64,000 nt of DNA, from contig JAFCMP010000533.1 of NCBI GenBank assembly GCA_017506865.1, positions 186,001 to 250,000 on the forward strand. Direction: 5' to 3'. Shown here in pieces: positions 152 to 63,000 of this stretch; the first letter of the stretch is position 1, and each line of letters begins with the position of its first letter. The notes below the pieces were generated by a model. That model did not search any database and had not been told where the DNA came from. It saw nothing but the letters and a program-made list of their open reading frames with translations. This DNA is from Tribonema minus. Lineage: Eukaryota; Sar; Xanthophyceae; Tribonematales; Tribonemataceae. Position numbers and translations under genes: made by a program.

Positions 152-560
152 CGCTGTCACACACCTTGAGCGTCAAGTGCACCAGCTCCGCGAACCGCGC
201 GGCGTGGTCACCCGAGTGCTTGCGACATGGATGGATTCTGTGCGGAAATGTGACTGAGCGATGTGACCATACAATCCAACAAATGAGCGCTGTCACGCAC
301 CTTGAGCGTCACGTGCACCAGCGCCGCGACGCGCGCGGCGTACTCACGGCAAGCGCTGGCAATAGCTGCGTACAATCACGCTGAACGAAACCCGTGCCGC
401 AACGCGACGTGGATGCCGTACGTTGATTGCTGACCGTATTGAGCAACGACGACATCCAACTGATGAGCGCTGTCATGCACCTTGAGCGTAACGTGCACCA
501 ATTCTGCGAGGCGCGCGGCGTGCTCGCGGCAAGCGCTGGTAACAGCTGCATACGACCACG
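152..560 (-). repeat. Exon-echo array: three copies of the TIMELESS 639-821 exon end plus donor
   Basis: The exon that ends at 639 with ...LAELVHVTLK and donor GTGCGTGA is followed in the intron by three decayed copies ending near 473, 299 and 158. Each keeps CTCAAG followed by a GTG donor and a shared AGCGCTCAT-like intron stretch. The nearest copy still encodes EHAARLAELVHVTLK with mainly synonymous changes; the farther ones read EYAARVAALVHVTLK and DHAARFAELVHLTLK. Spacing is about 140-175 bp. Confidence 0.8.
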
Positions 561-638
561 CTGGTTGAATTCTGTGTGGCAGTGTGACTGAGCGTTGTGA
601 CCATGAAAATCTAACTGATGAGCGCTGTCATCACGCAC

Positions 639-3600
639 CTTGAGCGTCACGTGCACCAATTCTGCCAGGCGCGCAGCGTGCTCGCGTGAGTGCTTCGCAG
701 GGTTCCACCCCCTGAGGAGTGCGGGCAGCTGGTCGGCGCTCTCGCGCTGGAGGTAGACGTGCGTGAGCAGACCTAGGGCCAGTACGCGGTGCGACTTGAC
801 GGGGGACGCCGTGATGACAGCCTGGGGGGGGGGGGGGGGGGGGGGTTGTGGTTGTGGGGGGGGGTCAGGGGGGGAATTGCAAAGGTTTGTTGGTCGACAA
901 CTACGAGGACGCACAGGTTCTTGCGTGTAAAGGATGCACGAGGGGGCACCATGGTGATGGCCGGGGGGGGGGTAGGGGGGGATGGGGGGGAGAACCGCTG
1001 CAGAGATGGACTCGTGTGGACAGCAGAGATGGTGGTGGCTTTAGGGTGCTAACAATGCTGCTGCTGGTGGGAGAGGGGGATCATCGCTGTTGCACAGAAT
1101 TGCCGATGCAAACCTTCGAGCGCAACATGTCTCATCAGCACTGGGGAATGCAGCCGTTGCTCAGGATTACTGTCAGCACAGACAGTGCGTCATTAGCGCC
1201 AGCCAAGACTGAAACGCACCTGCATTTGCCAGCATCTGTGCGTCTACACATGAACCCTCGACTGTAGTACGTCCTCTACTGTACCGCCAGATGTGCAGCC
1301 ACTGGCGCAGACGACGCCGCAGCGTGCTTACCAGTATCTGCATCATCTCTGTGAGCAGCGTCAGCGCCTCCGTCAGCTTTGGCAGGCTGGCGGGCGCCTT
1401 GGGGTTGGCCAACGCGTGCTCGCACTCGCCTAGCGCCAGGTTGAAGCACATGACATCCAGCGTTTCGAGGATCTGCAGCGGAGGCATGAGATTTGCATTG
1501 GCAAAGCAACCATTGAAAGAGGTAGTGGGGTGCGGCAGGGGCGCGTGCATTGTAAGCACAAGTACTTGCAGGCGAACGCGGCAAACGTTGTGGGCAGCGC
1601 AAGAAACAGGCGAGGCCGGTGGGCAGGTGACCAATGTTGAGCGCTATCAGCAAGGGTTAGGGTTAGGGTTAGGGGTTAGGGTTAGGTTAGGGTTAGGTCA
1701 GCAGCAGCGGCGCTGAAACACAAAGACAACGTGATGCTGCGCTGAGGCGATGGTGCGCTGCAGGACAGGCACGCTGCGGACTGGCATTTTGGAGGTTGTT
1801 CTCAATAGAAGTACTTCAAAATACTTGTACTTAGTCGAGAACAAGCATAGCAAGCGTCCTCATCACAGTCGTTGACAGAGGCGCTTTCCAATTGCTACTG
1901 TAAGTGTAGTGCTGGGGCTGCTGCCTGTGACACAGGTCGCAGTGAGTGCATCTGCCCGAGGCAGTGCTGTTTTCTAGGGTTAGGGCCGAACTCTACCCTG
2001 ACCCTAAGTCACTGCACTGCTCGGCCGGCCAGTGCTTGAAGTACAGAGGGCGTCCTGAAATGACACATGATGATTGCAACAAGTCCTGTTAGATCAGCTA
2101 GATGAGCCCAGAATCGCTGCGCGCCAGTGTGTACCCTCAATTGTGAAGTTGAAGAAACGGCAGATGGCACCCTTGCTTGACAAAGCAACATGTGCTGCAT
2201 GACGCAGAGCTTGCATTTGTGCAAGAAAGCCCCTCCTTTCAGCTCCGGAGGATGGGCCCCGGCCTGATCAAAGATCATAAACCAAGTGATTCGGTGTGGT
2301 GAAGTGTGGGAATGGGGTCGTGGATGGTGGGAAAGTGCGACGTCTGCTGCAAGTAGCAGAGCTGGCACACAATCACAAACACTTATGTACATACATATAT
2401 GTACACATGTATGTATACAAATATCTACATGTATGAGCACGGCACACATACCTGCCCCAGGCGGTACTCCTTCTTGCCGCCGGAGCACTGCCACGCCAGC
2501 CTGTGCGTGCGCATGAACAGCGCGGCGAGCCTGAAGAACATGGGCTTGTCCTGCGCCTGCAGCCTCGATGAGTCGCGTCGGATCTCTTCCTGCAGTGCGT
2601 CACAACAAATGGAGTACATTGAACAGATTAGGTAGTGCCTTCCGAGGCAGCTTGTAGTCAGGATGCAGCAGTGCTCTGTTGGTGATTATGGGCTTGAACT
2701 GTGTCTGCAGCCTCGACAAATTGCGCCAGATCTACTCCTTTAGCGCACATGAGATGAATATTCCGAGTTTTTGTAATTCTCATTTGAAGCATTGGGTGAA
2801 TGACGCTCAAGAACCGCAAGCACGTCTGGGTTGATAGGGCGCGTGAGTCAGCGCGCAGTCAGGGCGCAACAGTGCTCCGCAAGTGATGCCGGGTATTGTC
2901 CTGCAGTGTCAGTCTCAGGATACGACTTCAGCAGCGCTCAGGACGGAGCAACTAGCACCAGCTGGCGATGGCAGTCGCTCGTGGCTCTATATTGTGCACT
3001 TGATAGTTTCCAGAGCGACGGCAAAGTATTGCATCAAGGTGCGGTGCAGGAAGAGGTCAGCCCGTGCAGCGATGCTAGGGTTAGGTTTAGGGTTGGGGTT
3101 AGGATGCAGCGCAGCACCGCAGTTACTTCTACCCCAAGTGCGCATGGGCGCTCCGTGTGTGCCGACCTCATCCAACTTCAATTTCAACAGCCCTGCACAC
3201 CACATCCACTCCGTGCCTTGATGCTGCGCATGAAGTTTTGGGAGATTACTTCAGCTGCAGGGCAATGCCTACAGCAGTGCTCAGCGCACGCCTCGCCATG
3301 CCACAATACCACTGCGCACGTGCGCACAACATCGCATCTCGCTCTCCACATATGCACGGCAGTCTCCATTAACTTCAACAGCGCCAGAAGCTTGATGCTG
3401 CACGCATGAAGCCAGCGCGCATGCAGCGCAGCATCGCAGTACCTCCACCCCCCCCCGAGTGCGCAGCATCACAACGCGCTCCCCGCGTGCGCCGACCACA
3501 CCCCAACTTCAACTTCATCTTCAACACAGCTCCCCGCACACCACATCCCCATCTGCACCTGAAGCTGCGCATGAAGGGGGGTCGTGCAACACCGCATTGC

Positions 3601-6600
3601 CGCTCCGCGCGTGCGCCGACCTCACCCTAACTTCAACTCTCAACTTCAACACCTCCCCTGCGCATGAAGGGTTGTAGCCGACCTCCAGGAATCCCCGCGC
3701 GAAGGCCTGCCAGTGCCTTGCGCGCGCAGTCCCCCTCCAACTTCAACTTCAACTTCAACACCACATCCCCAGCGCGTGCCTTGCTGCTGCGCTCGAAGGG
3801 GTCACCCCAACTTAAATTTAACATCAACACAGCCGCACGCACGCCACCCCCCCCCCTTCCGCACCTTGATGCTGCGCATGAAGGGGTCGTAGCCGACCTC
3901 CAGGAACCCCCGTGCAAAGGCCTGCAGCGCCTTGCGTGCGCAGTCCCCCTCCGCGCGCGCGCTGCTGCCGCAGCCGCCCAGAGCAGCGGCGGCGGCGGCG
4001 GCGGCGCTGCCGGCGGCACCTGCGTCCGGGCGCTGCGCGACGATCGCTGCTGCTCCGCGCCGGCCGGGCTTGGGGGGCGCCTGGGGCACCACCTGCGCAG
4101 GGAGAGCGAAATATTGAAGTTGCTATTGAAGTTGCAGGTGTTGTGTGTGGTTTAGAGGAAGGTTGCGTGTGGTAAGTGACATATGTCCGTTCGGGGCACG
4201 TAGAGAAAGCAGCAAGCATGCCCGTTCCGAGCACGTGCTGCAGTGCTGCAGAGCGCTTTCCGATTCATTGTCTGCCGTGCCTGAGACACCACCCGCGCGT
4301 AGGGTTAGGGTTAGGGTTACGGTTAGGGTTAGGGTTACCGTTACCGTTACCCTAACCCCAACCCTAACCCAAATGCAGGCAGGTCGCTGTGGTTCAGTGA
4401 AAGCCCCCAACGCCGACAGTAGACATGCCTGTGCGACAGTAGGACTCGGCGGCTCGCAGCGAAAAGTTGAGGTTGCAGAATTCTTTCTCTCAAGAAAGCT
4501 ACATGATTGTGGAATGACCAAACCGGCCAGTATGCGGAGACAAAGTCTATGGCAGCTCTCACCTCCGAAAGGTTTTGGAAGGGGTTGTTGGCGAAGCGCG
4601 CAACGCCGGACGCCCCTGGGGCGATCCTGATAGTGCCTCCGAAGCGTGAGTGGCGACTGGCGTATCCATACATGTATATAAAAGAAGCAGACAGCAGCGC
4701 AGAGACGCCATGTATGAGCATACTCCTTGTGAATTTGGACAAAGTCTGCAGTCATTTACAAGCATACATGCCATAAATTTACTGGCGCCACATCTGTGGC
4801 GGTGCGTGGTCCGGGCATACATCTGTGTAGATCCTGATGCTGTGAAAAAAGGTGGCAAATCGTGTCCGTGTGTGAAGCGCGGTGGCGGTGCAGTAGTGGT
4901 AACTTAAGCGATGGGCATGACCGGCATGTCACAGAGAGTGGAGCTGGCGCGCGCTGCGTACGGCGCTTTAACGTCCAGCAGTTGATCCCTATACTACTAC
5001 CGCAGTGTCGCTGAGAGGTCCTTGCTGGCGATCAAATAAACTTGCGCACAGACGATGAACGCCAGTGGATTGCTCAACACACACACAAAGGCCAAGTCCA
5101 ACAACATACCTCAAGTTGCATATGCAATTGTGACGTGCAACCGTGGACATGCTCACAGTTTCAAGAGCTGCTGCGAACACGCTGAATGCCCGGTGGATTG
5201 CTCAGCGCACAACACAAGGCCACGTTCAATTAAAAACTTCAAGTTGCTTCCGCAAGGGTGATGTGACTTTGAAGCGTGGGAATGCTCAAAATTCTAAGAG
5301 CTGCGGCGCACATGCTGAATGCCTAATGGATTGCTCAGCACAACACAGGGCCAACGTCAACAACACACTTCAAGTTGCTTCTGCAAGGGTGACGTGCCTT
5401 TGAAGCGTGGGCATGCTCACAGCCTGGCGCACAAGCCGCTCCTTCTCCAGCATACCCTTGAGCTGCCCTCCACCGGGCGCCACGCCTCCTCCGCCGCTGC
5501 GCTGGTCATCGCCCAGTGACCCTGCATGCGCGAACACCAACACAAGCAAAAGTGGGGTGCGTCACCGACGGAAATGTAATAGGGCATTGACAGCACCGGC
5601 AGATGCTGATCAGGTGCGTGGCAGGATTTGCTTGCAGTGGATGCATGCGCTCGTGCCACGTTGCCCGTGGCGTCCACGTCAGAAGGGCCGAGAGTACCGT
5701 AGGCCCAACGAAGATGTGACAAAACATTGCCAACCGTCTTACTTCAAAATACTTGTGAGGTACATGGGTTTTGTCCATAGACATGGTGGTGCAGGCCTTG
5801 TGAGCGTTCAATGAGCGCTGAATTGAGAGTCACCTCAGCATCCGCTTGAGGTGACATGCCTTCAGTATTGGTGCATGTGTACACAAGTCATGAGGGCTTC
5901 TGCGAAGGGCGCAGCGACGTGACTGAGGTGCGCAGCGGCTTGTCACAATTGCGGAACCGCAGGAGCGCAGTAACCTCACATCTGACGCAGCTGCCATGAC
6001 ACATCATCAACAATAAGTCACACACATGCAACCTGACGCAGCTGCCGCAAGATCGTCACTGAGCCAAATACATACATACATACATAATGCTACATCACGA
6101 CGGTGCCGCACCTGCGCTCTGCGAGTCACTCTGAAACGAAGCTGCCTCCAGCGACGCAATGGCGGCCGCAGCGACTGTGTCCGTGCAGCCCTTGTCTGCC
6201 AGACCCCGAGCCAGGTGGCCCGCGTCTTGCCCCCTGAATATGGAGTCCAGTATGTCCAGCAGCAGCAGGTTTAGCTTGGCGTTGTCGCGCTCGCCTATGC
6301 CCTGTGCGAGATAGGATGGACATGGGGGGGACGTTTGAGTGACTTGAAGGCTTTAGATCGACGCCAACAGCACCCTCTGCACAGTTACGGAGTATGACAC
6401 CTACATACCAAACTTGTCAATACATACATACCGTACTTGCATGTGCATGCATATCTACGCAGGTTTCTCCATCAGGTCCACCTTGGGTTTCCTACTCTGC
6501 CACCATGATTAGTTTTGTCACACAGTGAAGTGTAAGAGCCGAATGGCAGTGCACGATGCACATGGATGGCAATGGGGGGATCTAAGTAGGGGGTTTGGCG

Positions 6601-9600
6601 TTGAGCTCTAAGGGCACCATGGGGTTTGTGTGGCTGCACCGCACAAAAAAAGGGATCACATGAGCACGCCACCAGGTCCCGTTGCTGATCATCATGTCAC
6701 ACGGCAGCAACTGGGACCACAAGCATAGCATCACTGGTACGATTGCAAAGTGCAATCACTACCAGACACAACACCTAGGAATGCAACCGCAATGGTCAAC
6801 ATGACAAAGCGGTTCTCCCTCAGCTTCCCGAAGGTACTGTTTCACTTTGTTGCGGGCAAATGCAAAAGGCGATTGACCTTCAAAGTAGCCACAGCTTCTT
6901 TCAAGAATAGATTACTTCAGGTATTGGTTTTGTACCTGTGCAAGCACCAGGAGGATATCCAGGACAAACTCGGATGCCAGAGCAGACAGCAGCAGCTGGT
7001 GATCACCCTGCAACAGCAGCCGCAGGCACGGCAGCAGCAGCATCAGCAGCAGCAATAGCAAATGTATTCAGCACCTAAAAATCATCGCGTCACTTCAAGT
7101 AGTAGCTGGGTGGTTGCACAAACTATTGCTGCATGGTGTGGAAGAGCAACAGTCATTTCCCGCTTGTTTGTCAAGTCAAGGGCAGCAACCTGGCGCTACA
7201 GTACAACTGATACTGCAAAAAGGAGGCTGTCACTGCCTGTCACAGAATTCAAGCTGCATTTATTCCTTTCGAAGTTTGACGCGCCGCACGGCAAGGTCGC
7301 TTGCAGGCAGCTCCGTTACGCGCACCGAAACCACACAACCAGTCAGGTCGTTACAGCTGAAGAGTAGTGCGGCCTGCTTCACACCGCACCCCATAACCAA
7401 CCCGCCCTCCCCCCCCCCCCCCCCTCCCCCTCCTCCCCCAGTATACCCCACCCCCAGACAGACGACCTCCTCACCTGCCCGGTAATGGCGCCAGTGGCGT
7501 CGTCCCTGACCGCGAGAACGTTCCTGAGAAGCGTCAGTGTCAGCTCTATGAGGAACGCGTCGGCCTCCGTGCGCTGCCCCGCGCGCCCCCCCGTCCTCCC
7601 CAGGGGCCCCTCCAGCGCGCCGACGAGCACTGACGCGACGCTGCGCGACGCGAACGCGCGCTTCACACCGCGCAGCGCCTCCAGCTGCGCCAGCGCGTTC
7701 TGCCGCCTGGATCGGGAATGGAGCGTCGTTACATTTGACATGTGAGGGACAGGGGCGTGTGAGATACTTGTCAGCGACTGATCCGGCAACTGCTCTCAAG
7801 ACGGTATGTAACGCTGCGCGACGCGAACGCGCGCTTCACCGCGCGCAGCGCCTCCAGCTATGCCAGTGCGTTCTGCCGCCTGGAGCGGCGTGGGGAATAA
7901 ACTGTCGCTTTCATGTAAGGGGCAGAGGTGCGCCGACTGATCCGGCTCCTGCTGTGAAAATTAATTTTGTGCATGTGCGATGTGACGCGAACGCGCGTTT
8001 CACTGAGCGCACCGCCTCCAGCTGCGCGCCAGCCGCGTTGGATCGGGACGTGACATTTTAAGTGAGGGACAGGGGTGTGCAAGAGATGTGTCAGCGACTG
8101 ATCTGGCTACTGCTTAAAGATATGTAATGCTGCGCGGCACGCATGCACGCTTCAACGCTCGCAGCACCTCTAGCTGTGCCAGTACGTTCTGCCGCCTGGA
8201 GCAACAGCGCAGGGAATGGAGCGTCGTGACATACTGTAATGTGAGGGACAGGGGCATGCGACCAACTGGTCTGGCGCTGATTGAGAAGATGTGAAGATAT
8301 GCAGCGTTGCGCTTAGGGTTGCGGTTAAGGTTAGGCCCGAACGCGCGTTTCACCGGGCGCAGCACCTCCAGCTGCGCCAGCGCGTGCTGCCGCCTGGAGC
8401 AGTGGCGGCGCAGGGGAGGTAGCGTCGCGGCATGCTGTGACGTCTGAGGGACAGAGGCGTGCCAGACACGCGAGCCCCCTTAAGGAACACGTGCACATGG
8501 TAGTCAGCACACTTCTGTTCTCCATTCGCACACTGCCCTTACCGCTGCGCGCACTCCTGCGGCGCTGGCTCGCTCTAACACTGCTGCCACTACTCCTCTG
8601 CAACATGTGCAGTACACAGCAACCCCCTCCAAACCTCAACGGCATGTGGCATCGGGCAAAACCTTGAAGAATGTGTCCACCATTGTGAGGTAGGGGTGCA
8701 TGTGGGGCAACTGTCCTTCTGGTTGAGAATGTCTGACCAGATGGGCGCATCCTTTTGTGGTACAGTTGGAATTGCCCCTGTCTTGACAGCTAAAGGAGTC
8801 TGAGGGAACGTCATCGCACTTACCGCTGTGCGCGCTCCTGCGGCGTGAGCTCGCTCTGGCGCTGCTGCTACTACGCCTCTGCCACGTGTGCAGAACACAA
8901 CAAGTGTGCAGAACGCAGCAATCCCCTTCTCAACCTCAACGGCATGTGGCAAAAGGGCAGAATCTTACATTTAAAGATTTGGGTCAAGTGTACGTAACCG
9001 CACTGAAGGGGCTTGTGTACATCAACTTAAAATATATAAATCATCAGAGACATCGATATCAAAAGTAACTTCAATTTGTGTTGCCTTCTCTCGTTTGCTA
9101 ATAAATTTCAATCACAATTCTTTTTTACCGCTGCGCGCGCTCCTGCGCCGTGAGCTCGCTCTGGCGCTGCTGCTTTTCCGTGAGGTGCAGTGGCTCCTCC
9201 AGCGCCATCTCCGCGGTGCGGCTCAGCGGTATGCTGAGCATCACGCATATTTTCATGACCTGCAGCGTTTGCGTGCAGGCAGCTTTAGCGATCAGTCCAC
9301 CGCAGCAGAGTAGAATTGTGCGATCGCGCGGGCAGGGTGAGATTGTGGCCTGATGGACTGTCATTGTCCTGCATCACTGCTGCTGCTGCTGCGCTAGATG
9401 TTCCACTTGCTTCATAGTAACTTTCATCTGTTTGCGCCAGTTGCAAGTCGCCGTCCCTGAATCACATGCAGTGTCAAGGTCGCGATCAAGCACCAACTGA
9501 CAAAGGGTATCACTTCCACCATATACTCCGTCGAGCACTTAGCAAGGGCGTCACTGCTTGTTGTTGTAGATGTGTTGTTCATGTAGCCGTCATAACTGCA

Positions 9601-11289: not shown

Positions 11290-11687
11290 CTGGAATAACA
11301 GGTCAGTTAGCCAATACAGTCTGCACTGCAGGTCAAAAGCAAGGCAGCGGCGCAAGCGGTTAGGTGCAACTGAGTGCCATGCATGGCGCACAAGCACAAA
11401 ACAATTGCTGGCATATGACTGCCGCAGGCTGGCATGAGCATCGACACGGGCACAAAGACAGAACAGCACAAGAAGCATTTTATTTTCACAACAGACACTA
11501 CAACACCCACGTTCACCGCGAAAGCTTTATCAGACGCTGCCCGGTCTCGATGTCCGGTTCTTCAAGTTGATGGCATCGCGAGTCAGGAAGCCTTAGGGCA
11601 GGTGGAGTTGCCAATGGGGCGGGGCTACGATATCTCAAGGGAAGGGAGTGAAGAGCAGCTTCAAACAGCTCTCACATCCAGGTCAGG

Positions 11688-12280
11688 TTAGCTGGTGAGG
11701 CAAAGCGGCGCTCTTGTGGCAGTCTTCTGGCAGTCCCAAAAGACCGGGCTCTTCCAGAGATCACTGAAGCAGGCGAGTGCCTGTGAGGTATACGCAGCAG
11801 CTCCTGTGTAGCTCGCTTGGTGTACCTTGAAGGCAGAGAAGTCTTCTCTGCTCACCAGTTGCTGAAGCCGCCAAATCGACCCAAGAGCCCCTGAACCGAC
11901 GCCATCCTGCTGCTTTCGCGTGCCAGCATCATGCACTCCTCCCAGTCTCATCCCCATGCATCGGAGTTCATCCCACATCCCCCCAAGCCTGAGGGTGCCA
12001 GTGCCAGCCCCCGTTACATCATGCACGATCATCGAATTTTCAGATTGCCGCTCACTGCCACGCGGCGAAGTCCTACAGACAGGCACCGCCACTGCCATGG
12101 GTCAAAAATGCAACACAGGCGGCTGTGTAACAAATAATGTGTACCGACATGTCTACAGACAGTGCACTTTGTCACAGAGTCCCCTATGAAGGGCCGGCAG
12201 GCCGGGCAAGCTTTGTGACCTAAGCCTACATAAACAACTGCCAGTGAGTGTGATATAGTTACCCTTGTATCAATTAGATA
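11688..12280 (-). pseudogene. Damaged Cys-rich / unidentified reading frames within copy A
   Basis: The minus strand has a segment with CPACRPF and CTVCRHV cysteine pairs (about 12.15-12.2 kb), then a 136-codon open frame at 12098-11688. The same order occurs on the plus strand of copy B (about 45.1-45.65 kb), where stops and frame changes interrupt it. The paired cysteines look like a zinc-binding fold, but I do not recognise the family. Both copies seem non-functional or incomplete. Confidence 0.35.
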
Positions 12281-17090: not shown

Positions 17091-17094
17091 AAAT

Positions 17095-20700: not shown

Positions 20701-23700
20701 TGGCGCTGATCACCAGAGCTAGCGTGGTGGTGTTGATGTGCTAAGCGTGGCAGCACGGCTTAATGGCAATGCAGATGTAAGCTTGCAGCATGCGCGCAAC
20801 ATGATCTCAATGCAACAGAAAACATGAGGTGATGCACATCGTTGTTTCAGATTCAAGCAATTGTTGAGGTGATGGTCTCTGACTTGCTTTAAGCGCAACT
20901 TACAAAAGAGGCTGTCTGTTTGCGGGTCGCTCGCCCCCCGTTCCTTAAGGAGGGGGGTGCTTTCTTGTGACTGCTTCATACAGGACATCACATTTGTCAG
21001 CTTGCACATCTCTCATATAGAGCCGATACACGAATTGACAAAAAAACATGACACAACGTGTACTGCAAGCACACGCACGCCAGGTTGCCTTGCCTGCCAA
21101 AGAATCTGAGCAGTGAAGAAACCATGCACGCTTTGAAGCTCATGTGAGCAGCACGCACAAGCATCGCGGGTTGTCTCAATCTGCAAGCACACCTCCGGCT
21201 TGGCTCTTGCGCCAAGTGCAATTTCGCTGAGCGCGTGCGTCAGCAAACTTCAACTTGCCTGCGACAGCGCCAGCAGTTCCTCCCTGAACGACACCAGCCA
21301 CGCCTCGATGCGCTCGTCGAGGTACTCTGGGGGGTGCTGGGGGCTCTGAATGGTGACGCTCCACCCCATAACCCGTGAAGGGGGGGGTCCCAGCCTGGGG
21401 TTCGCTGCCACAATGTACCCCAGCTGTGAAAGAACGACCGAAGGCAGTGAGGCAGGTTGCAGCGCATGTGAGCGTTGCATTGAAGATTCAGAGTAAAACA
21501 ACACAAAAGTGACGCTCCACCCCATGACCCGTGAAGGCGGGGGTCCCAGCCTGGGGCTTGCTGCCACAATGTACCCCAACTGTACACGAATGAACCGAGG
21601 CAGGTGAGGCAGGTTACAGTACATGTGAGCGTTGGGTTGAAGATTCAGCGTGAAGCGACAAGTAGTGACGCTCCACCCCTTGACCCGTGAGGGCGGGGGT
21701 CCCAGCCTAGGGTTCGCTGCCACAATGTATCCCAACTGTACACAAATGAACCGAGGCAGGCAAGGCAGGGTACAGCACATGTCAGCGTTGAAGTACAGTA
21801 GCAGCGAAAGAGGGGGTGCCAGCCTGGGTTCGCTGCCACAATGTACCCCAGCTGTACACAAAATGAGGCAAGTTGCAGCACATGTGAGCTGCCACACTGT
21901 CTCCAGCTGTACAAGAATGAACCATGACCAGTGAGGCTGTGGATAAAACGTTCAGCATATAGCGATCAATAATAAACGGCGGCATAAGTGGCTACTTGGA
22001 CCAAGTGGAGTCGATGACTAGATGCGGGCTGGGGGTCTTAGCCTGGGGCCGCCATCACAATGTACACCAGGTGTATCAAACGTGAACCGCTGATGAACTG
22101 CCATCCTATTATGATGAACTGCAGCCATCTTATTATCATAAAAGTATCAGCCAGGTTCAGGCACGACGCGTCGGATCACGAGTCCGTGAACTGCGGGTTT
22201 CGACGCAACCAACGTGTTGAGGTTGGCGTCTTGGAAGTTGCCACAAGAGACCCGTGTTGAGGTTGGCGTCTTGGAGGTTGTCACAAGAGACCCACGAAGT
22301 CAACACGCGCTTTGTGAGCGGGACTGACGGTGAGCGTGTGCGCTTCTACACAACAGTAGGGGCTGCAGTGGGCTGTGGGGATTGAGGCTACCACCGTAGA
22401 TTGCTGAGAGTAGTGATGGCAAAGAATGATTGTCGCTCAATATGCATCATGCCTTGTACCTATGCAGCCACCAAGAGTAGAAGACATCAGGGGGCGGCAA
22501 CAGCTGTGGCCAAAGCTATAAATAGGGCCACGTTGGCTCAGAGTGGCTTCAAGCACGTCTGGTCATGTTCACACTCGAGAGTCTGTGGACTGCCGCGTCT
22601 TGCAATACTGCGCGTGCTGAAAAAGCCGTACAGGAGCAACAGCCAAACACACGAACAAGGGTCTAAACAGTGGCCTCAACTGCATTGCCAGTGCAGCGAG
22701 TCATGCGGCTCTCCATCCTTACGGCAGAAATTCAGATGTTCGCTCACATGCAAGGGTGCTGCGATCCCAACTTGAAGTTTGTGTTGCGATCTGCTAGGCT
22801 GCTCTCATTCCACTGAAACAAACGGAGCGCAAGCCCATGTTGTGGCACCTCACAATGACTTAGAATGCAAACAATTGCGTGTTGCTCCAAGCCCATATTG
22901 TCTGCGCCCATTGACTCTTGACTCTTGACTTTGACTTGCCTGCTCCTCTGTTCGTAACCGTGTGAAGGCGCTGTTGGCAGCCACCATCTGGATGACATCA
23001 AGGCACGCCTCCATTGACAGATCTGAAGCGTCACCCGTCCCAACCTGCAAGTGCAGCTCCACTGCGCTGTTGTCCTGTTGGATGTGCAGACACAGCCGAA
23101 AAGCTCAATTCATCAGAACTGTTCATCAGTGTCATGCTGGCCTGAAGCAATACGTTACTTCAAAATGAGCAGGCCATACTACATTCTGAAGCGCTTGATT
23201 GTATTTCCCAGCGGTTTGCAATGTATAAATTAAGTTCTCGAATTGCAAGCCCACGGCTGCTTCCTGACTCCGCGATAGAGCAACGATAAAGTCAAGGTGA
23301 GGTTTTTAGGTTTACCATCAACCACGCTTCAGAAATGTAGTTGCCCCAAAAAGCACACAGCGTTTGGTGTTGCGCCAGCGTATCCCCATGTCAGTTTGTC
23401 ATGATGACGTGCAACGACGCACACTGGTTCATGCACTGCGCGCATGGATGGAAGCGCCGTCGTGTGATGGTATGCCCGGATCTGCGGCTGCCGCTTACGC
23501 GAACTCGGCCGCGTCAACTGTTCGCCTACCGACTACTACTCAGCTGCAGCCACAAGCCTACACTGGCTGGACGATACCAGCCAAAAAGTGATGCACATGC
23601 TGCTTCCTCCCCGTGAACTCTTCACACGTACAGACTTCGGGGCCTGTTCCCCGTGTGGTGGGACGCCCGGCTCTGCAACCGCTGCTTGCGCACAGTGTGT

Positions 23701-26700
23701 CACTCAGCCGCATCCACTGTTACAAGCATACTTGCAGTATCTGATGCGGGGTTCACTAACCCTAACCCTAACCCTAAGATTGGTGCTGTTTTGATAAGAT
23801 TGGTGCTGTTTTGATGTTATGACGTGGTCGTGCTGCCGTGCACGGGCAATGCAAGGCCTGCCCTCAATAAGCACAAGTGCCAGTGCCTAACTGATTCATT
23901 AAATACAGAAAAGAGTGCACACAGCAAGTTCACGCGGCAGTGCAGCTCTCGCAACGCATGACTGCCTTGGCTGGTACTACCGGTCATCCAGTTGCACACG
24001 CGACCCATACATTCTAGACTGCCGCATCATGGAGACGTACTTACTTAAACATGCCTATCGAACAAACATGCTTGGTGTGTGAAGGGAGTCTCACTGCATG
24101 CCTCCACCAATGCAATGCAAGAATTTTTAAAACCACTTTGTGGAAATGTACTCAAGACTATACCTGATAGTTGAGGGAGTCTCACTGCACAAATGTAATG
24201 TGAGCTCTGTTTTGTACGTTTATCAGCCTAAACCTAAACCACACTACTCTTACCTCGCCCTCAGTAGCCGGTACCAGCAGCACCGTGCCGTCACCCCCTG
24301 CAGGGAGCTGCATGGTCTCACGGTGAGGGCGCTGCTCCACCTGGCACATGAATATCACACAAACAGTTGTTAGCTATTGCACTCTTATTGCGTGCTATAC
24401 ACCGCCGACGGAAGAGATGTTCAAAGGCACGCAAATTGGCTTCCAAACACGTCGGTGAGGGCGGTGCTCGACCTGGCGCATGAACATTGCACAAACAGCC
24501 ATTGGGCATTACACTGAATTGCGTGCCATGCAGTGCGATGTGGGGGGAATTCTTGAAAAAACATCAACGCATCTCAAAAATGCCCACCTGTTGCACTTAA
24601 ACTGCGTGCTATGCAGTGTGATCAGGGACAAATTATTGACGACATGTAAATCGACTGAATGCCCACATCACAGTACTTAGAATACTGCTGCAATGCATGG
24701 TCTAAGCACGAAGCAAGCGGATTACATGGCATATCTTGCAGTGATGCAGCATTTCACAACGACGCCCCAGAGTGCACGCCTCAAAACACGTCAATAATTC
24801 TTGGACAATTTGCACGTGGAAGGAGTAAAGAGTATGTACTGAACCTCTGTGTTGGGCTGCCGGCTGGAGCTGGCCTACCAAACACGTGAGACCTTTCTAA
24901 TACTGAAAACCCATGCCTCGAACACTGAAAGCTAGCACACAGAAGTTTTTGCGACTGGTGGATACGGTGGTACTGTTTGACTCGTGGCCAATTGCTGCAG
25001 CAGCGGCGACCACGGTCATTGGTGGAAGGCAGTTGTGGCTGACCATCCCTTGTCACCTAGAGCTCTGCAATCTTTTGATTGGTTTTCATGTACATGGAAG
25101 TAAACCACACCACGGTCACAGCAGGAGACGTGCATGCCAGCATGCTCCGTCATTTCCAAGTGGCATCATGAACATACTCCAAAAAAGAATACTTAAACGT
25201 GGAAGTACAACCAGCCGGCATTGATTCAAGCACGTGCGTCTGTCAAGCCATCCACTTTTCTTGTGCCCACTTCATGCGCAGACGCGCATGTTTGGGCTAC
25301 TAGCAGACTGTAGGTCATGACTGCGTCTGCAAGGTGATCCGCTGCGTCCATACTAGGCGGGGTAGGCATGTATCCTTGCAAATATGTAGAGAGCATACAT
25401 ACGTACCGGCAGCGGCGCAAAGGGCTTGGTGGTGGGGTAGGCATGTATTCTTGTAATGGTAGAGAGTACACATACATACCGGCAGCGGCGCAAAGCGGCT
25501 TGGAGGTGGGGCAGGCATGCAATATTGTGATTGCAGAAAGCTCAACTACTGTACACACTAACCGGAAGGGGAGCAAAGGGGGATAGCGCCTCGTGCAGCC
25601 TGTGCCCGAGCTGCTTGGCCTCCGCAGCGCACAGATTGCCATGTGCGAGAACCTGCGGACAACACGTAAGAAGAAGGCACAGCGCGTCATGAGGAAGAAA
25701 CAGAGTTGTTGCATGAGGGGACGCAAGTGAGGAGACTTGTGTCATGCAAGCATATTCATTCGCATGCTCCAAGAGAAGGACATAAAGGGACATGTTTAGA
25801 GATAGACTAACATACACTGACGCCTGCCAATGAGGCACAGCTCGTCATGAGGCAGCGACAGAGGTGTTGCATGAGGGGGTGTGATGCGGGGGAAATTGTG
25901 TCATGCGAACATACATGCATGCATGCATCAAGAGAAGGACGCACAGAAGGGATGTCATGCAGGCGACTTACTTGGCCCATGCTGCTTGACATGCGCGACA
26001 GCATCAGAAATTGTCAAACACGGTGTCCATAAACGCATTCTTGCAAGTAGACCAAAACCCCACCAAAACCCCGCCAAGATACGTGTTTGTACCAGCATGT
26101 AACTATCTCAATACTTCATAAAGGAGGTACACACTTATTGGTCAAACCTAGGTCACGGGCATAGCACCACGATGCATTGACATCGACACCCACACGCGAC
26201 AGCGCCAAAATTTGTCAAACATGAAGTCCACAAACAAATACTTGGAAAAAGTTCAAAAACACGCCAAGATACGTGTTCTGCCCGCTCGTGAAATGTCAAT
26301 ACTCCTGAATCTTTAACAGCAAGGTGTCCAGTTTTGATCTGTTTTGGGTCACACGCATAGCAACATGCACGTACATCAACGCCCACGCGCGATAGCGTCT
26401 CCTCCATGGCGCGCGCCATCACCGAGGGCGTGCAGTCCTCCGACTCAAGGGCCGCAGCGTACTCGTCCACGTGCCACGTGTCACTCTCCAGCACCTGTTT
26501 CAAGGGGGTAAGATGTCAGTGTGTGTCAGACACGCGTCTTGATCGTTGAGGCCTGTTGCGATGGGGAAGAGATCTGTGTGCGTTCAGCAGGCGTGGTACT
26601 TCGAAGTACTTGATTGTTGTCATGCCAGGTGTCAGTCTCCGGCATCTGTTTCAAGAGAAGCGGCTCGTCTGTGCGCGTCAGGCACGCATGTTGATTGTTG

Positions 26701-35700: not shown

Positions 35701-38700
35701 TATGAATAAATCTGAATGTGTTTGTTACATACCTGCATACCCGCGCTGATGCTGCGCGCCCAGCCCCTCGTAGTAAGCGCCTGATGCAGGCTGCCCTCTG
35801 CCTCGTGCCCCAGCACGTGGCTGATGTAAACGATAGGGCGCGTGGGGCCCTGCTCCGCGCGCGGGGGCAGCGGCCAGGACAGGATGGCCGTACGCTGCTC
35901 ACGCCGCGGAACTGTATAGAGCGTATGCGGAAATAGGTGGCAGCGATCAGCACGAGCCAGCCCACAAGATATCATGCAACGAGAGACCAACACCAATTGT
36001 GTGCTCATGTACACGATGGGGCGCGTGGGGCCCTGGTCAGCGCGCGGCAGCAGCAGCCATGACCGTACGCTGCTCACGCCGCGGTACTGTCACACGCGTG
36101 CAGAAATGGGTGGCAGCAATCAGCACGAGCCAGCCCGCACGTGTTGGAGTATGAGATGGTCCAACGCTGAGTGCATGTCCTAGGGCTAGGGCACGGTCCA
36201 GTTCTAGGGGTTTCTCGAGCAACTTCCGACAAGTTCTTCAAGGGTTCTGGTGCCCCTACGAAACGGAAGGTTCCGGCTGGCAATTATTTGTGTCAACGAC
36301 GATATCACTTGTTCTACTCTCAGCTCAAGGCACCTACAAGCAGGGCATGCCTGCTCTCCTCTCTCAGTTCTCTCATGTGATGATGCAATGTGTGATGAGC
36401 TATTGCGTGCACTGTGCTGCCTTCTGGCTACCAGTGGCATGTCTGGTAATGCCGCTACCAGGTGGACGTATCATACAAGGAAATTGATCTCTTGGTCCAC
36501 AATTGATCTCTTGGTCCACAATTGATCTCTTGGTCCACGTGCGATGTTGTGTGCTGCTCTTATCCCGGCAGTATTGCATGCAGTGCGACAGGTGGCAGCC
36601 TGAGCAGTGTTGAACACCCTTCAGGCTGCCCATGCCCTGTGCAATTGGCAGCGCAGCGCGTATTTTGTGTGCACACGTTTGTCGAAAAGCGCCAGTGCGC
36701 TGCATAACGATCAGGCGCCCAGGCTTGAGACGGACGGTGTGATCATGCTGCGCAACAACACAAGAGCTCGCTGTTGCACAGCCCCTACCTCACGGTCTGT
36801 CAAATCCACAACATAGCCACTGGCGCACAGTGGTCAAGACAAAGATAAGTACGGCAAACTCACAAAGTACTTTGTACATGGGAGAGACATGAGATGATGT
36901 GAGTAGTGACGTGCTATAATTGGCATGGCGGCGCACCACCTGCGAGTATGCGCGTCCCCAGTCTGTCGGGCCCAAATGCCTCCACATCCGGCTTTGGTGG
37001 CGGCGCTGCAGTGAGCAGCAGCAAACAAGCAATGCATGCAACGACAAGGATATCAGCTGAGGCTCAGGCTACATGCCCTCTCTGCGGAGAGGCAAAGAAA
37101 AACTGGTGCCCCACGTTCCAACGACGCAGGGATCCCTAGCACTGACCGCTTAGACTCAAGGACCATCAAATAGCAATGAGTTCAACGCCACCCATTCGAG
37201 CCTGCCTCTGCTGCTACCAGCAAAATCAGCACAGTGTTGGGTCACATAAATACTAATTTACCACACAACTCGTCTTCAAAACTTCAACTTGGACTGGTTA
37301 CTTAGTGCAACTGCGGCCGCTGGCGCTGAGTTGTGCAGCGCCACAGAGTGGAAGCGCAGCACGCATCAAAAACTCAATTGAATGACTGAGCACTTCAGTT
37401 TGCCAGACAGAGCAGCTGAGTGGAGTTGCGAGGACACACACAGTGACATGACCAGATTTCCACACACAACGACTTCTCAAGTGTGCAGACCGCCGCCAGC
37501 TTCTCTGGTGTTTGAGGATATGCAATGCACTGCGCGTCCCGCCGGGCCACACATTGCGCTGAATCAAGTGCCCAAGTAGGCGTCTACCCCCGTGACAGGC
37601 CCATAAGCCTCACGCATCCCCTTCTGCGCCTCAACGCCTCAAGTTGGCGCTGCAAGCACCCTAAGCAGCAGTGCTCAGTGCATGGTGCTGTCGGCTGCAA
37701 GTGAGCAATCGCACAACGATCATATTCATGCCATCTCGAGAACAATTTGTCTGCAACAGAAAAGCAACCTAACTGATGCCCCCCTACGCATGCAGAAATG
37801 CCCCGTGCGCCATCTTATCGAGCTCGCCCGGGGGCCATTTCTTCCATTATCGAGAGTATTACAAACTTCAAGAGCGCAGCCCTGTGGCGCCTACAGCTGG
37901 AGCGCAGCACACACGCCACTGCTGTCAGGACTTTTGCTTATGGCCTCCACCAATGCCGCAAGTAACCACAACTTAGTGCAGAGGCTCACCCGCCCCCCCC
38001 CCCCCCTGCCCGAACGTCCCCCTGACCAGAGCCTCCAGCTCATCGAACGACTCCCTGCCGAGAATTGCCAACTCAAAACTTCACAAACTTCAAGTCGCAG
38101 CTGGGTGCTGCCTGCATCCAAGTGTAGCACACATGGCACTGCTCACAAGCCCCTCCGCCGCTGGCACTACTTAGGCAACCACTTATTTCGCGACGCTCAC
38201 CCGCATCCCCTCCCCTGACGTGCCCAAACGTCCCCCTGACCAGTGCTTCCAGCTCGTCCAGCGAATCCCTGCCGAGAACTGCCAGCTTCATGCGCGGAGC
38301 CACGTAGTGCTGCCTGTTGAAGTCGATCATGAGCGCGCGCGTGTCTACTCCCGGCCGCGGCGCCAGCGTCGTCAGGCACCCAGAGCCGAACTTGGCGAAC
38401 GGGTGCTTGGGGTTGGCGGAGCTCTGAGCACGCGAGAAAAATGAGGCGGCGGCAGTTGAAGCAGCGGAGCAAGCGTGAACTCAGCATGGGTGCTTGGGAT
38501 GACCAGAGCTCTGACACATAAGAAGAAATGAGGCAGCGGAAGTTGAAGTTGATCATGCGCGCGTGCGCGCATGACCACCCCCGGTCGTGGCGCCAGTGTC
38601 GTCAGGCACCCAGAGCCGAACTTGGCGAATGGGTGCTTGGGATTGGCAGAGCTCTGAACACATGAGAAAGTTTAAGCAGCGGCAGCAGTTGAAGCAGCGG

Positions 38701-41700
38701 TGCTGTGTGAATTTGGAGCTCTGACCACATGGGCGCAATGAAGCAGCGGCAATTGAAGCGTGAACTCGGCGAACATGTGCTTGGGATGACCAGAGCTCTG
38801 ACACATGAGAATAAAGCGGCAGCGGCAGTTGAAGTTAATCAGGCGCGTGCGCATGTCTACTCCCGGCAGCGGCGCCAGGGTTGTCAGGCACCCCGAGCCA
38901 AATTTCACAAACGGGTGCTTGGGATTTGCGGAGCTCTGGCGCGGAGCACGGCATGAGAAGAATAAAGCAGCGGCAGTTGAAGCAGCGGAGCAGTGTGAAT
39001 TTGGCGAACGGGTGCTTGGGGTTAGCGGAGCTCTGATCAAACGGGTAACATGAAGCAGCGGCGGTTGAAGCAGCGGAACCAGGTGAACTTGGCGAACGGG
39101 TGCTTGGATTTAGCGGAGCTCTGACTACACGGGCACAGATGAGGCAGCGGCAGTTGAGCAGCTGAGCTGTGTGGATGCAGTGAGATGATGGCGTTGCCAA
39201 TAGGTATGTAGCATCTGTCGCGCAACGCTCAGCTAGCTGAGGCACCAGAGCACCGATGGCATGCGGCGCGCCGCGGCGTGCAGCCAGATGTGCTGTCCCT
39301 GATACAGGCGATGTGTCTAATTAGCTCGAATTCATGCGAGGCGATGGAAAGTACCGCACGCACATGCGCCGATCCAAACGCGAGGTGCACGGCAAATTGT
39401 GTACGTCAGTGCGCGTTACAGTGCTCGGCAGGCGTGGCTGTCAGCCGCCTGCAAACATGCGTCAGCAGTCCTGTCCACCGCAGAGTGACCATCTCACAGT
39501 TAGGGTTAGGGTTACGCTTACAACAACTGCAAGGGGCGCACTAGCGGCTGAGACACAAGCACATGAGAAGCAGTGTGTCAAGCATTCCGTGCCTGGTGGG
39601 TGATGCAATGGATCGCTGTGGCTGGCTCAAACACACACGCTCAAGCATCGTCTACCAGTTGCACGTGGCCCGAGCAGAGGGCAGAAGAGGCGCCCCTTAG
39701 GGGCGGCGCCCCTTAGGGTTAGGGTTAGGGTTTGGCGCACGCTGCTGACAGCCACAACGCTCGCCTCATCCAACTTTCAGCGGCAGCGAGTCAACTGCTG
39801 CTTGACTGTACACACCCGTCTCAATCTTAAAACAACTCCATAATGACGATTCACTCCTCCATAAACACTCATATTTGAATCTGAATTTACACAGAAAAAT
39901 TGACGACCTAAAACTCGCCTTTAGCAGCTGGAACATGCGCCAGTTGTCCTCTGCCTGGTGCATGGTGTGCTCGCTGTCAACGGCATGCAGCTCCAATCCT
40001 CTCAGATACGTTATTCTTCTTTGAAATTGAAATAACACAAAGAAAAAATTGACAACGTAAAACTCGCCTTGAGCAGCTGGAACATGCGCCAGTTGTCCTC
40101 CGCCTGGTGCATGGTGTGCTCGCTGTCGACGGCGTGCAGCTCGCGGTCGAGCGCGTCCGCCGTGAACAGCGGGGCCCTGAAGAAGTGCGAGAACCGCTCC
40201 AGCGCGCCGTCCAGGTGCTCCGAGCCGACGTCAAAGTAGTACGATGTTTCTGCGCCAACACATTGTGAGTATTGTAGATTGTGAGCAGCTGTTCAGGTGC
40301 TACGAGACCACGTGAAGGCAGCGTGGTGGCTCCTCCGCGGGCGTCATGAGTTGGTGATGCTTCAGCGGTAAGCCAAAGCTAGGAGTAGCCGTCAGAGTAA
40401 ACAGATGTCTCAAAGGCGGTGCAAAAACCGTTCCAGGGTGCCGTCCAGGTGCTCCGAGCCAACGTCAAGGTAGTACGACGTTTCTGCCAACACACATACG
40501 GTAGGTGATATTGTAATGCCAGGGGGGTCATCCTAGTGCTCTGAGCCAATGTCAAAGTAGCACTTCTGATTATGTGAATTACAATGAATTGTTATTGTGG
40601 GCTTTAATTCCTGCTGGTACTGAGAACTCTGATGCTGCTGCGGGGGCACATTGCGCCTTCACGCTACCTACATTACGTGGTTTGAATGAACATCAAGAAG
40701 TGTGGTATTTTTGGCAGGACACATTGTATGTTTGGTGACGTATCAGGTTGTCTGGGAGCTCTGAAGTGACATCAAAAGAGTGCAATGTCTCAGAGGGCAT
40801 GCACCGCACTGTTGGCATACAAACAGCTGTCCAGGTGCTCGCAGATTATGGCGTCCTATGAACATCAAAGAAGCTCCACGGCTCTATGCAGACACCCCGT
40901 ATTCTTTTAAGCATGGATAATTCAACTGCGGTGAGCAGTTGTACCAAAGCGCACAATACACTTCAACGCCCACTTCAACTGCAGCCCAAGTCCAGATAGC
41001 GGACGCATGACACATCAGTCATCAAAGGTGGAGCGGTGTATGTTTTCATTTGTGTCGTAACCTGCAGCATCGTGAATGTATCTGACCATGGCTTCAGAAC
41101 CGCAAGTTCGTATCATAGTGAGTTGTGCGGTATCTTTGTACCTATATCACAAAAGCAGTATATATATGGGCACGATCCTTGCGGTTGCATAACGCAGGGT
41201 ATTTCATGCCTTGGAATATACGGCGGTACTGCAATACTGCAATCCATGCTGGGCTGCTAATTGCAGCACGGTATGTGACGTCAAAGAGGCGCCTTAATGC
41301 ATTGTCTTGAGCAGCACACACATGGAAATGTGGGCAGCACACCACTGACCAAGATGGTGCTTGTGCAATGCGCAGCTACGTAGTGATTGGGCCTGGAGTG
41401 TGGCTGTTGCGCTGAGCGCTGAGTTGCAGATGGAGAATGAAGTCAGTAACAGGCAAAACTACCCAAATACAGAGAGTCTCAAAGGTTCCTCGCTTGTGCT
41501 CGCATGGCGAGAGTGATGCAGCAAATTGGTTGAATGTTTATCGATTCATGAATTTCTGTGTGGAAGCCTACGCTGCCTTGTCATGAAGAAGTGCAGCGTC
41601 GAGTGATGCAAATATTCGTGCATTGAGTATCAACACAGTTAACCTTGCTGGAATGTGCACTACGATTATATGACATGAAAGACGGCAAGCTGCTGCGGTA

Positions 41701-59486: not shown

Positions 59487-59570
59487 GGCCTTAGGGTTTA
59501 GGGTTAGGCTAACCCGAACCCTAACCCTAACCCTAACCCTAACGCTAACACTGACCCTAACCCTAAGGCC
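59487..59570. repeat. Telomere-like inverted repeat bounded by GGCCTTAGGG / CCCTAAGGCC
   Basis: About 84 bp: TTAGGG units, a centre near 59509, then a longer CCCTAA run. Both ends carry the same 10-bp GGCCTTAGGG in opposite orientation, so the whole tract is a palindrome-like unit. Confidence 0.85.
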
Positions 59571-59629
59571 CCTGATAAAATGTCGCCAAAACAGAGATAA
59601 CAACAGTGTAACGGCGGCCGTATGGAGCG

Positions 59630-60000: not shown

Positions 60001-60038
60001 TATCTACCTTCTACTTTGAAGTGAAAAACAGTGCATAC

Positions 60039-63000
60039 CTTGAGCTTGTTGTTGCGGCGCTGCCTCTCCTTGCGTGCCGCCATGGCGCTCTCGGCGCACG
60101 CAGTGACGTCCTTGGGTGCGTGCACGCGCAGCTGGAACGCGACCTGCGGCACCACAAGGCGTTGGCGGAATGGGGATTTGAGTGTCGTCATTGTGGATCA
60201 TCTGAGAAGGGACTGACCGTCTTGGAGGCAGTTGCTTGAGGACAGACAGGTTTCAAAGACAAGATCTATGGTTCAGCGACCATAAGCGCAGCTATCTCTC
60301 GCATATGAGACTTGTCTCACTGCGTACATCAAACAACATTACCCACTTTCATTCAAAATGACAAAACGTGGACATGTCGGCATTACGAAGCGACTCACTT
60401 GTGTGCCTTCTGCGCATCATGGTAACGGGCGGCGGTGTGTAGCGAGGTCTTGCACAAATGCCGCCATTGACATGACGTCAGGAATTGCTGGCACGTTTTG
60501 CAGTCATCTTACACTACAATTCTTCATGTTCAGCAGTGAGCACTCTCAACACCGTTGACATGAGCACAGCATGGACAGATTCGGCAATCGAGCTACTTTA
60601 CACTGCTCAATGACCTGGTTATATGTCTTCCGCAGTATGGTGGCAACGGCAGGCGTCGCGACAGGCGGCAAAGCTGAAGTTGTGCCCTGCGCAGCGCTGG
60701 TCTCCTCTGCCTTCTGCTGCGGCTGATTCTCAGGCACCTGCTGCTGCTGTTGCTGCTGGCTTGGAGTCTGGTGCTGCCTGCGGAGCGCTGCCATGCGCCG
60801 CATGTCCTGGCCGGCAGAGAACACAATGGGCATTTTGCAGACAATTTCGTGAATTTTCGCTCATGAGACGCTGTTGTACAGTACTGTATGGGAAGATGGC
60901 ATTGCTGGCACGGGGCGTAGCATTAATCTGCAGGGATTAGGGAGCTGATGACTTCAAGATCGCTGTGTGCCCTAAGGGTCTTTGTTGTGTTGCAAAGGCC
61001 CTTTGCAAATCAAGACGCCACTTCAACAACTGCCTTAAGGCTCAGAAAAGTTGGTGACAAAGTCGAGGGCAGGGAGTACTGTCCGCTTTCCGTATGATGA
61101 TACACAAATACATGCCAGCACCTCACCATCTGCAAAGGGCGCTGTGCACTTGTTGTGCCAGCTACTGCATCAATTTTCTACAACTACTCTGCGACCGTGC
61201 CGCAGACATAAAATGATCCCAACATTTGCCAAAAGAGTAACAAGAGCTAAGCGCTGCCGCTGCTGCTGCTGCTACTGGTGCCGCTGCTGCTCCTGTGCCT
61301 GCTTCCTGCTACCTGATGTCTGTTTTCCACCAGGTGCCTCCTGCCATCACTGATCACACAGTAAAGTGTGCCATTGAGTGAACGAAAGAGAGGGTGTGTA
61401 CGCTCACCCACACTGCGGCCTCTGCCTGAGACAGCGAGTCATCCGCATCATCAGCGGCGGAGCGCCCAGAGCTGAGCGCTGCTGCTGTTGCGGTGGCGTC
61501 GCCGAGCCCGCTGCCCCTGGCGAGCTGCTGCCCCATGCAGAAGGCAGCCACCTTGTTGCGCAGAACCTTGCGCTCTAGGCGCGTGCGGCTCTGGGTGTAC
61601 GCCACTGTGGCCTGCACAGGGGCGGAGTTGGCAACACGTCGACTTGTGAGTAAGCAGCAAAGGCAGAATTGGGTCTGGGTTCATTCTTCGGCACAAACCT
61701 GTGGACGCTCGCAGTGCCGAACGAATCGCACTGCACTCAGGGCGTGAGCATTTAGCGCAACACTTCAGAGCACGTACACACACTCAAGACAGTAAAGCAT
61801 GCGAACACCATCTGCCCGGAGAAATGTGACCAGTGATTGGCAGGCCAGGGAACAGGACGAGGACAGTGCATGCACATGCAGCCACACGCGGCACCAGGCA
61901 CACCTCATGTGGGAGCAGGTGCGCTGTGCGCAATGACTCACGACTGTGTGCCCACGAGAGCCCCTTCACCAGGCAAAAACATCACTACCCACCCTGCAGC
62001 GCACCTGATACTCCTCCAGCTCTCGGCACTGCGCATCGGCGACCTCCTCCCGACTGTGCGTTCAGGCAAGCCCATTGTTGACCCTGCAGCGCACCTAATG
62101 CTCCTTTTGCTCTCGCCTCTACCCTCCTCTCGGCTGTGTGTTCACACAAGCCCAAAATTGACCTTGCAGCGCACCTGATACTCCTCAAGCTCTCAACGCT
62201 GCGCTTCGGCACCCTTTTCCCGACTGTGTGCCCATGAGAGCTTTCTTCACCAGGCAATGGCACTACCTACTAACTCTGCAGCGCACCTGATGCTCCTCCA
62301 GCTCTCGCCGCTGTGCATTGGCGACCTCCTCCCGACTGCGCGTTCTGGCGACACTAGTCACCACTATTACCTACCAACCCTGCAGCGCACCTGATACTCC
62401 TCCAGCTCTCGGCGTTGCGCTTCGGCACTGTCCTCCTGATTGTGTGCCCACAAGAGCGCCTTTCACCAGGTAATATATCACGAGGTAATACATCACGATA
62501 GCCCATTTCACCTGGTAATGAATACATCACCGACACCAACCCTGCAGCGCACCTGATACTCCTCGAGCTCTCGGCGCTGCGCTTCTGCGACTTCCTCGCG
62601 CTGCTGCCGCGCGCGCCCGTCCTCGCTGCGCGTCATGCGCTGGCTGCCGCTGCCGGTCTCGTCGTCGTCCTCGTCGCCCTCAAAGTCGTCATCCATGCCC
62701 ATCTGCGCACGATAAACACGCGCCACAAGGAAATGAAATTTAGGAGAGATTGTTAGCCTGCTGCCAGAAATTGCACCACGAGTAAAGGAAAAATTCAGGA
62801 GAGGCGGTTAGCCTGTCGCTGGCCTTTGTGCTTGGCAGTACGTATCCTATGATTTTCAGTTATTTCCTGCTGCAGTGAACACTGAGGTCTGCTGTAGTGG
62901 TGGTGGTGCTGTCAAGGTCGTCGTCCACACCCATCAGCACACACAAAAGACGCGCCACAACACAATAAAATTCAGAAAAGGTGGTTAACTAGTTGTTGAA

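Follow-up and report, generated by a model that had tools for sequence, protein, structure and literature searches.

Long introns are usually attributed to transposons and drift, and the tandem duplication of whole exons is a known form of intragenic tandem duplication, to which the internal gene duplication reportedly treated by Gao and Lynch in 2009 also belongs. The arrays that we describe here share with both the intragenic tandem duplication, but they consist mostly of half-exons with one splice site, and only 1 of 64 exons was found copied whole. Other described systems come close in different respects. In the tandem duplication of exonic AGGT, a duplicated exonic segment becomes a new intron (review PMC3443670; Drosophila cases PMC2891723); there as here a local intragenic tandem duplication provides splice sites without necessarily altering the mRNA, but in those accounts a new intron is made, whereas here an existing intron lengthens and the extra copy lies beside the exon edge from which it came. 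Closer still in geometry is the potato RdRp gene, where a single recent, boundary-crossing tandem duplication made a new intron (PMC4974935); the duplicated unit reported there also spans the 3' end of an intron plus the start of the next exon, while in our case there are many events, spread over 14 of the 23 genes studied and leaving as many as 7 copies at a junction, and the copies are apparently unused. Introners, as described in Amoebophrya and elsewhere (PMC7789003; PMC9860276), likewise remodel the introns of protists on a large scale, but they belong to dispersed families that often carry inverted and direct repeats, in contrast to arrays that among the compared loci are private to each junction and made of head-to-tail copies of the host exon edge. 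Finally, direct repeats of 4–30 bp close to exon–intron borders have been read as insertion scars (PMC11782384); those lie at both borders of the intron, whereas the present units measure about 75–250 bp and lie on one side only. The full-text literature searched, largely without the subscription journals, described single cases and intron-gain models and no arrays of junction copies at such density, in agreement with the earlier note on this DNA, which knew of no named description. The elementary duplication events are known, then, and it is arrays at this density that are undescribed in the literature searched.

The window, by which we mean the whole stretch of 64,000 nucleotides from Tribonema minus that was analysed, comes from a 158-Mb genome assembly of 554 contigs and is eukaryotic by its spliced genes. 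It contains three intron-bearing genes, all on the minus strand:

start near 10.35 kb, minus strand: Timeless (Pfam TIMELESS match)
42.5–17.7 kb, minus strand: insulinase-type M16 protease (domain match on the joined exons)
about 59.6–63 kb, minus strand: third, unnamed gene (no Pfam family above the cut-off in the pieces scanned)

Exon edges were set from the reading frame, splice signals and homology, and the donor sites are GT, with some GC (40068, 22940, 21259). Joining eight Timeless exons gave an open frame of 412 aa and took the Pfam TIMELESS match from 6.3e-10 for a single exon to 2.7e-40 (positions 1–220 of 271), with the brown alga Choristocarpus (40%) as the sole named relative among the matches listed; eight joined insulinase exons gave an open frame of 355 aa with a Peptidase_M16_M match of 3.4e-30, and their many matches include Nannochloropsis and Laminaria. 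The automatic insulinase model consisted of 37 pieces, many of them spurious-looking, and the junctions were afterwards picked by hand. Transcript-derived evidence came from a close relative, in the form of two proteins, P0001 and P0121, of an EukProt Trinity transcriptome, both from one Trinity cluster (DN6514_c0). They are listed as 97% and 96% identical to the joined insulinase exons and cross 12 of the exon joins at the real junctions, with no sequence from the copies described below, although one of the two ends in an apparent retained intron; for Timeless, a search of this kind gave no near-identical record. These proteins fix the insulinase junctions, yet they do not prove that the copies are skipped in this strain, because the relative may lack them, having perhaps diverged before many of them arose.

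Each junction was probed with up to 90 exon bases plus 60 intron bases in an iterative search of the adjoining intron, and the decayed copies so found are here called echoes. Echoes occur at 25 of the 55 splice junctions of the window (13 donors and 12 acceptors in Timeless, insulinase and the third gene), with 60 copies in all and 1–7 at each, a rate less neutral than that of the kinesins given below because the window junctions were hand-picked with the echoes in view. The script had listed 56 entries, namely the 55 real junctions and one stray pattern. The echo-bearing junctions are as follows:

120..639, minus: Timeless donor 639, three downstream donor echoes (120–221, 249–348, 454–528)
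2589..2739, minus: Timeless acceptor 2589, one weak upstream acceptor echo (2688–2739, 0.77)
3210..3865, minus: Timeless donor 3865, three donor echoes (3658–3738, 3501–3579, 3210–3235)
5102..5421, minus: Timeless donor 5421, two downstream copies starting at the donor, no exon part
7706..8461, minus: Timeless acceptor 7706, four upstream acceptor echoes; exon with the Pfam TIMELESS match
8539..9129, minus: Timeless donor 9129, two donor echoes
21423..22074, minus: insulinase acceptor 21423, four acceptor echoes, unit 156 bp; junction in P0121
24340..24529, minus: insulinase acceptor 24340, one acceptor echo; junction in P0121
25652..25870, minus: insulinase acceptor 25652, one weak copy, intron half only
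26151..26375, minus: insulinase donor 26375, one donor echo; another near 26.03 kb by eye only
26494..26972, minus: insulinase acceptor 26494, four acceptor echoes; junction in P0121
27164..27719, minus: insulinase donor 27719, three donor echoes; junction in P0121
28734..28908, minus: insulinase donor 28908, one donor echo
29649..30319, minus: insulinase acceptor 29649, five acceptor echoes, more weak ones by eye
31993..32437, minus: insulinase donor 32437, two donor echoes
33018..33193, minus: insulinase acceptor 33018, one acceptor echo
35167..35733, minus: insulinase donor 35733, three donor echoes
35911..36139, minus: insulinase acceptor 35911, one acceptor echo, unit 183 bp
37981..38201, minus: insulinase donor 38201, one donor echo
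38423..39167, minus: insulinase acceptor 38423, seven acceptor echoes; junction in P0001
39874..40068, minus: insulinase GC donor 40068, one donor echo; junction in P0001
40249..40494, minus: insulinase acceptor 40249, one acceptor echo; junction in P0001
59735..60039, minus: third gene donor 60039, two donor echoes
61953..62553, minus: third gene donor 62553, five donor echoes
62702..62987, minus: third gene acceptor 62702, one weak acceptor echo (0.75)

Donor echoes lie after the exon and acceptor echoes before it, with no wrong-side echo at any of 26 donors and 23 acceptors in the two main genes, and copies of the intron half only were seen at 2 of the 25 junctions (donor 5421 and acceptor 25652). 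The self-comparison of the window gave 93 direct-repeat pairs less than 2.5 kb apart against 9 inverted pairs, the latter being palindromes, telomere-like stretches or one pair at 13.3–13.65 kb; at a fixed score, 28 local tandem clusters were found in the window against none in each of three Markov shuffles. These results bear out what the earlier note had read from the letters, that is, introns of three genes filled with tandem, decayed copies of the neighbouring junction, each on its own side of the exon, and its figure of at least 15 arrays proves conservative. Its range of one to nine copies per array is confirmed up to seven by the automated count, and its spacing of about 80–180 bp was too narrow, given that we measured units of about 75–250 bp.

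Only one tandem cluster of the window, at 13274–13737, falls outside the three intron-bearing genes, and it consists of 42-bp units plus palindromic stretches. Elsewhere the window carries an inverted segmental duplication (11321–16462 and 42037–45966, in pieces 71–92% identical), on which lie an FNIP-like gene and part of insulinase exon 1 (16279–16462, plus strand, 92%). Four related ORF regions, whose DNA is 78–85% identical, lie at 14229–15332 (plus), 43255–44317 (minus), 48030–49106 (minus) and 54130–55161 (minus); the first has an FNIP-repeat match slightly below the cut-off, and all four sit where tandem echo arrays are absent. An 846-aa open frame at 50902–53442 (minus) with a weak RVT_1 match (4e-6, below the cut-off) is probably a retroelement. 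Interstitial telomere-like (CCCTAA)n stretches occur within or adjoining the genes at 1653–1697, 4300–4373, 33757–33839 and 59491–59566, and an array of 38-bp units at 34141–34624 (minus), directly upstream of the insulinase acceptor 34126, is intronic and contains no exon sequence by eye.

The pattern is not peculiar to the window, since it recurs in a second gene family across the same genome. We took as a sample 20 kinesin loci, namely the first 22 gene clusters, out of about 42, minus C116 (a single exon matched) and C14, with 81 of 88 fitted exons retained and 7 of under 40 bp left out. Echoes were found at 36 of 122 junctions, half of them donors and half acceptors (18 of 61 in each class), with copies of the intron half only at 6 of the 36. 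Wrong-side matches numbered 6 of 82; four of them, by inspection, belong to exons of 64–161 bp, where the probe reaches the other exon end or an acceptor echo runs deep, and the remaining two come from L047 and L050, where the models are doubtful. With fixed 60-base segments at a score of at least 44, the donors matched on the intron side in 16 of 61 cases against 2 of 41 on the other side, and the acceptors in 13 of 61 against 0 of 41, while none of 62 exon centres was repeated nearby. At the same score, none of 1359 mismatched comparisons of junction segments among the 20 loci found a segment common to different genes, a result that argues against introner elements, from which the arrays had been set apart at the outset. 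The echoes are unevenly spread: 9 of the 20 loci had none at the score used (L033–L038, L040, L042 and L052), whereas L049 and L051 together had them at 15 of 20 junctions, which may mean that the process depends on a property of the gene.

Regarding the anatomy of the repeated unit, it is arranged head-to-tail, the additional copy lying towards the intron, and has a median length of 157 bp (quartiles 130 and 182), the lower end of the size range being clipped because the search begins 60 bp beyond the junction. Of 58 nearest copies, 30 aligned over 70% or more of the unit, 19 over 40–70% and 9 over less than 40%. In 86 of 127 echo alignments the junction is spanned by at least 10 bp on both sides, as a tandem duplication crossing the exon–intron boundary would leave it, with exon part, splice site and intron part together; the other 41 do not reach this extent. 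The exon parts vary broadly, from 10 bases up to the 90-base limit of the probe, and therefore the breakpoints do not look splice-defined. Within the exons themselves no internal repeats were found (65 exons, 11,660 bp), and the single whole-exon copy, with both splice sites, is that of a 64-bp exon in L049, in keeping with the claim that whole-exon duplication is not what is seen here. The placement of AGGT intron gain was not found either: the upstream exon end is repeated before the acceptor in 0 of 85 introns (last 100 bp searched) and the downstream exon start after the donor in 1 of 85 (first 100 bp searched), this one being the same L049 case. In the printed flanks of an exact 101-bp tandem unit in L048 there was no microhomology at the breakpoints, clean young duplications being too few for more. 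Donor and acceptor echoes showed no coupling at the exon or intron level beyond what gene-to-gene variation explains (P = 0.33 and 0.60 in a within-gene permutation), and the P = 0.02 of a kinesin-only same-exon table was obtained without this within-gene control. An assembly artefact is unlikely, given that the copies mostly differ by about 5–25% with indels, one nearest copy (L046, 177 bp) being identical. Local tandem arrays take up 27% of a total of 74 kb of intron sequence, and introns with echoes have a median length of 1004 bp (n = 43) against 543 bp for those without (n = 42).

In the copies that cross the junction, the exon part is 0.890 identical to its source in donor echoes (n = 32) and 0.874 in acceptor echoes (n = 54), against 0.815 and 0.804 for the intron part; this ratio is about what is expected if the copy alone changes in the first case and both sequences change in the second, that is, neutral decay. 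The splice dinucleotides are the same as at the real site in 29 of 32 donor and 46 of 54 acceptor echoes. An impression by eye that all of them were intact, as if selection kept or removed echo splice sites, failed in the alignments, which leave a slight excess: 161 of 172 dinucleotide bases identical against 0.87–0.89 for the exon part. On a simple score of our own, 18 of 32 donor and 28 of 53 acceptor echoes are no weaker than the real site, but the echo means are lower, at 3.68 against 4.51 for donors and 1.79 against 2.03 for the acceptors that keep AG. The echoes thus have the look of neutral relics in which the likeness to a splice site persists, and the word "decoys" used for them in the earlier note holds for this look, not for a demonstrated use.

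Placement was examined with the exons masked in 85 introns of the window and kinesins, which contain 44 arrays in 34 introns, against an expectation that allows for both chance position and the crossing of junctions. Arrays lying within 25 bp of an exon number 28 of 44 against 14.4 expected (P < 5e-5), and within 50 bp 33 of 44 against 17.2, while within 5 bp the 15 of 44 against 11.4 expected is not significant (P = 0.12). This excess is due to the multi-copy arrays, of which 21 of 27 lie within 25 bp against 7.7 expected (P < 5e-5), and not to single pairs, which are placed as by chance (7 of 17 against 6.7). Only the multi-copy arrays are thus anchored at junctions, a refinement of the original claim. 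In the kinesins alone 12 of 17 multi-copy arrays are anchored against 5.6 expected (P = 2e-4, rising to 0.003 and 0.025 with larger assumed founding units), and without L049 and L051 the count of 4 of 6 against 2.7 is not significant. The farther an echo lies from the exon, the lower its identity tends to be (Spearman −0.36, P = 6e-4, 26 arrays), a relation that the earlier note had proposed to check; in only 14 of the 26 arrays does the highest identity belong to the nearest copy, so that the ages follow a trend only, and a strict ratchet with perfectly ordered ages is rejected.

Most likely, with a probability that we put at roughly 0.64, these arrays are the product of neutral tandem duplication that fires again on its own homology and is anchored on the selected exon. 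Introns would lengthen by neutral local tandem duplications of units of about 75–250 bp, and a duplication straddling a junction would be tolerated if the extra half-exon lands inside the intron, leaving the exon with its one real junction and the intron with an echo, in the form of a half-exon with one splice site. The homology between neighbouring copies would then promote more duplications, by unequal exchange or slippage, and given that purifying selection would hold the exon copy unchanged, the homology between exon and echo should persist about twice as long as that between two intron copies. The arrays would thereby keep growing at the exon edges, where copies closer to the exon would tend to be younger, and the echoes would afterwards decay neutrally; there is room left for an extra junction bias beside this homology-driven regrowth. 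The analysis itself shows the arrays, the side on which they lie, their neutral decay and age trend, the open frames of the joined exons and the recurrence in a second gene family. We infer the molecular duplication step, and we also think that splicing probably ignores the echoes through exon definition, an echo having just one of the two splice sites. The intron growth by repeated tandem duplication across junctions that was first proposed for the window is supported in this form. Simulations of homology-driven re-duplication with a fixed exon, in four settings, gave a fraction of multi-pair arrays of 0.30–0.73 (0.61 observed), but both their multi-pair anchoring of 0.52–0.58 and their array density of 0.17–0.26 per kb stay below the observed 0.78 and 0.59, and an earlier simulation (self-BLAST, 50:50 duplication to deletion) gave no anchoring (0.222 of 18 with purging and 0.125 of 16 without). 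Also against this model, the kinesin multi-copy excess rests on the two genes L049 and L051, the overall excess is not significant within 5 bp and shows only at 25 and 50 bp, some of the 9 nearest copies (of 58) aligned over less than 40% may be local non-tandem copies, and a purely genome-wide process might leave more clusters outside the three genes than the one found in this small sample.

Plain random tandem duplication with purifying selection would give the exon no special role, conserved exons simply making the echoes visible, and it predicts well the chance placement of the single-pair arrays, the frequent repetition of intron-interior windows in the kinesins (33 of 298 downstream and 26 of 298 upstream), the lack of a significant overall excess within 5 bp of exons and the kinesin result without L049 and L051. 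We nevertheless consider it unlikely, given that the excess within 25 bp persists with the exons masked, that the multi-copy arrays are anchored nearly three times as often as expected, and that forward simulation of random duplication at two rates yielded only 4 of 125 and 16 of 198 multi-pair arrays, without added anchoring (0.25 and 0.31), against 27 of 44 observed. Less probable again is a duplication hotspot at the junction linked to splicing, transcription or exon chromatin, such as nucleosome-sized re-copying where nucleosomes are positioned on exons, or RNA-templated copying. The unit median and interquartile range do resemble the size of a nucleosome, the tandem clusters of the window are almost restricted to the intron-bearing genes, and the observed anchoring exceeds that of the homology-driven simulation, but the lower unit sizes are clipped by the search, the exon parts are broad in length with no junction-defined breakpoint seen, and single duplications fall at chance positions. 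That the echoes are functional, as alternative exon edges, regulated unproductive splice sites or splicing enhancers under selection, seems to us very improbable: the well-kept dinucleotides and the many echoes scoring at least as high as their real site would suit it, while the exon part changes at roughly the rate expected of one neutral lineage, the mean scores are lower than those of the real sites, the two transcriptome-derived proteins of the relative contain no echo sequence, and splicing at an echo would put 56 of 85 cases out of frame, run into stops in every frame in 20 others and leave 9 with some frame open.

Returning to neutral duplication regrowing on the selected exon, the share of intron in local tandem arrays and the greater length of the introns with echoes mean that this genome gives a dated, stepwise record of intron growth. 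A wider and more tentative idea, to which we give somewhat less than even odds, is that splice junctions are amplification centres, the selected exon edge acting as an ever-fresh template, so that introns lengthen in ratchet fashion at their ends. About 3 in 10 junctions bear echoes, and more in the window, with about half of the echoes scoring like a real site; on this idea the spliceosome must pick the outermost pair every time. The arrays amount to a natural splicing experiment, in which similar splice sites lie adjacent and only one gives the right protein, and they let the choice of junction by cells be tested, for example through exon definition.
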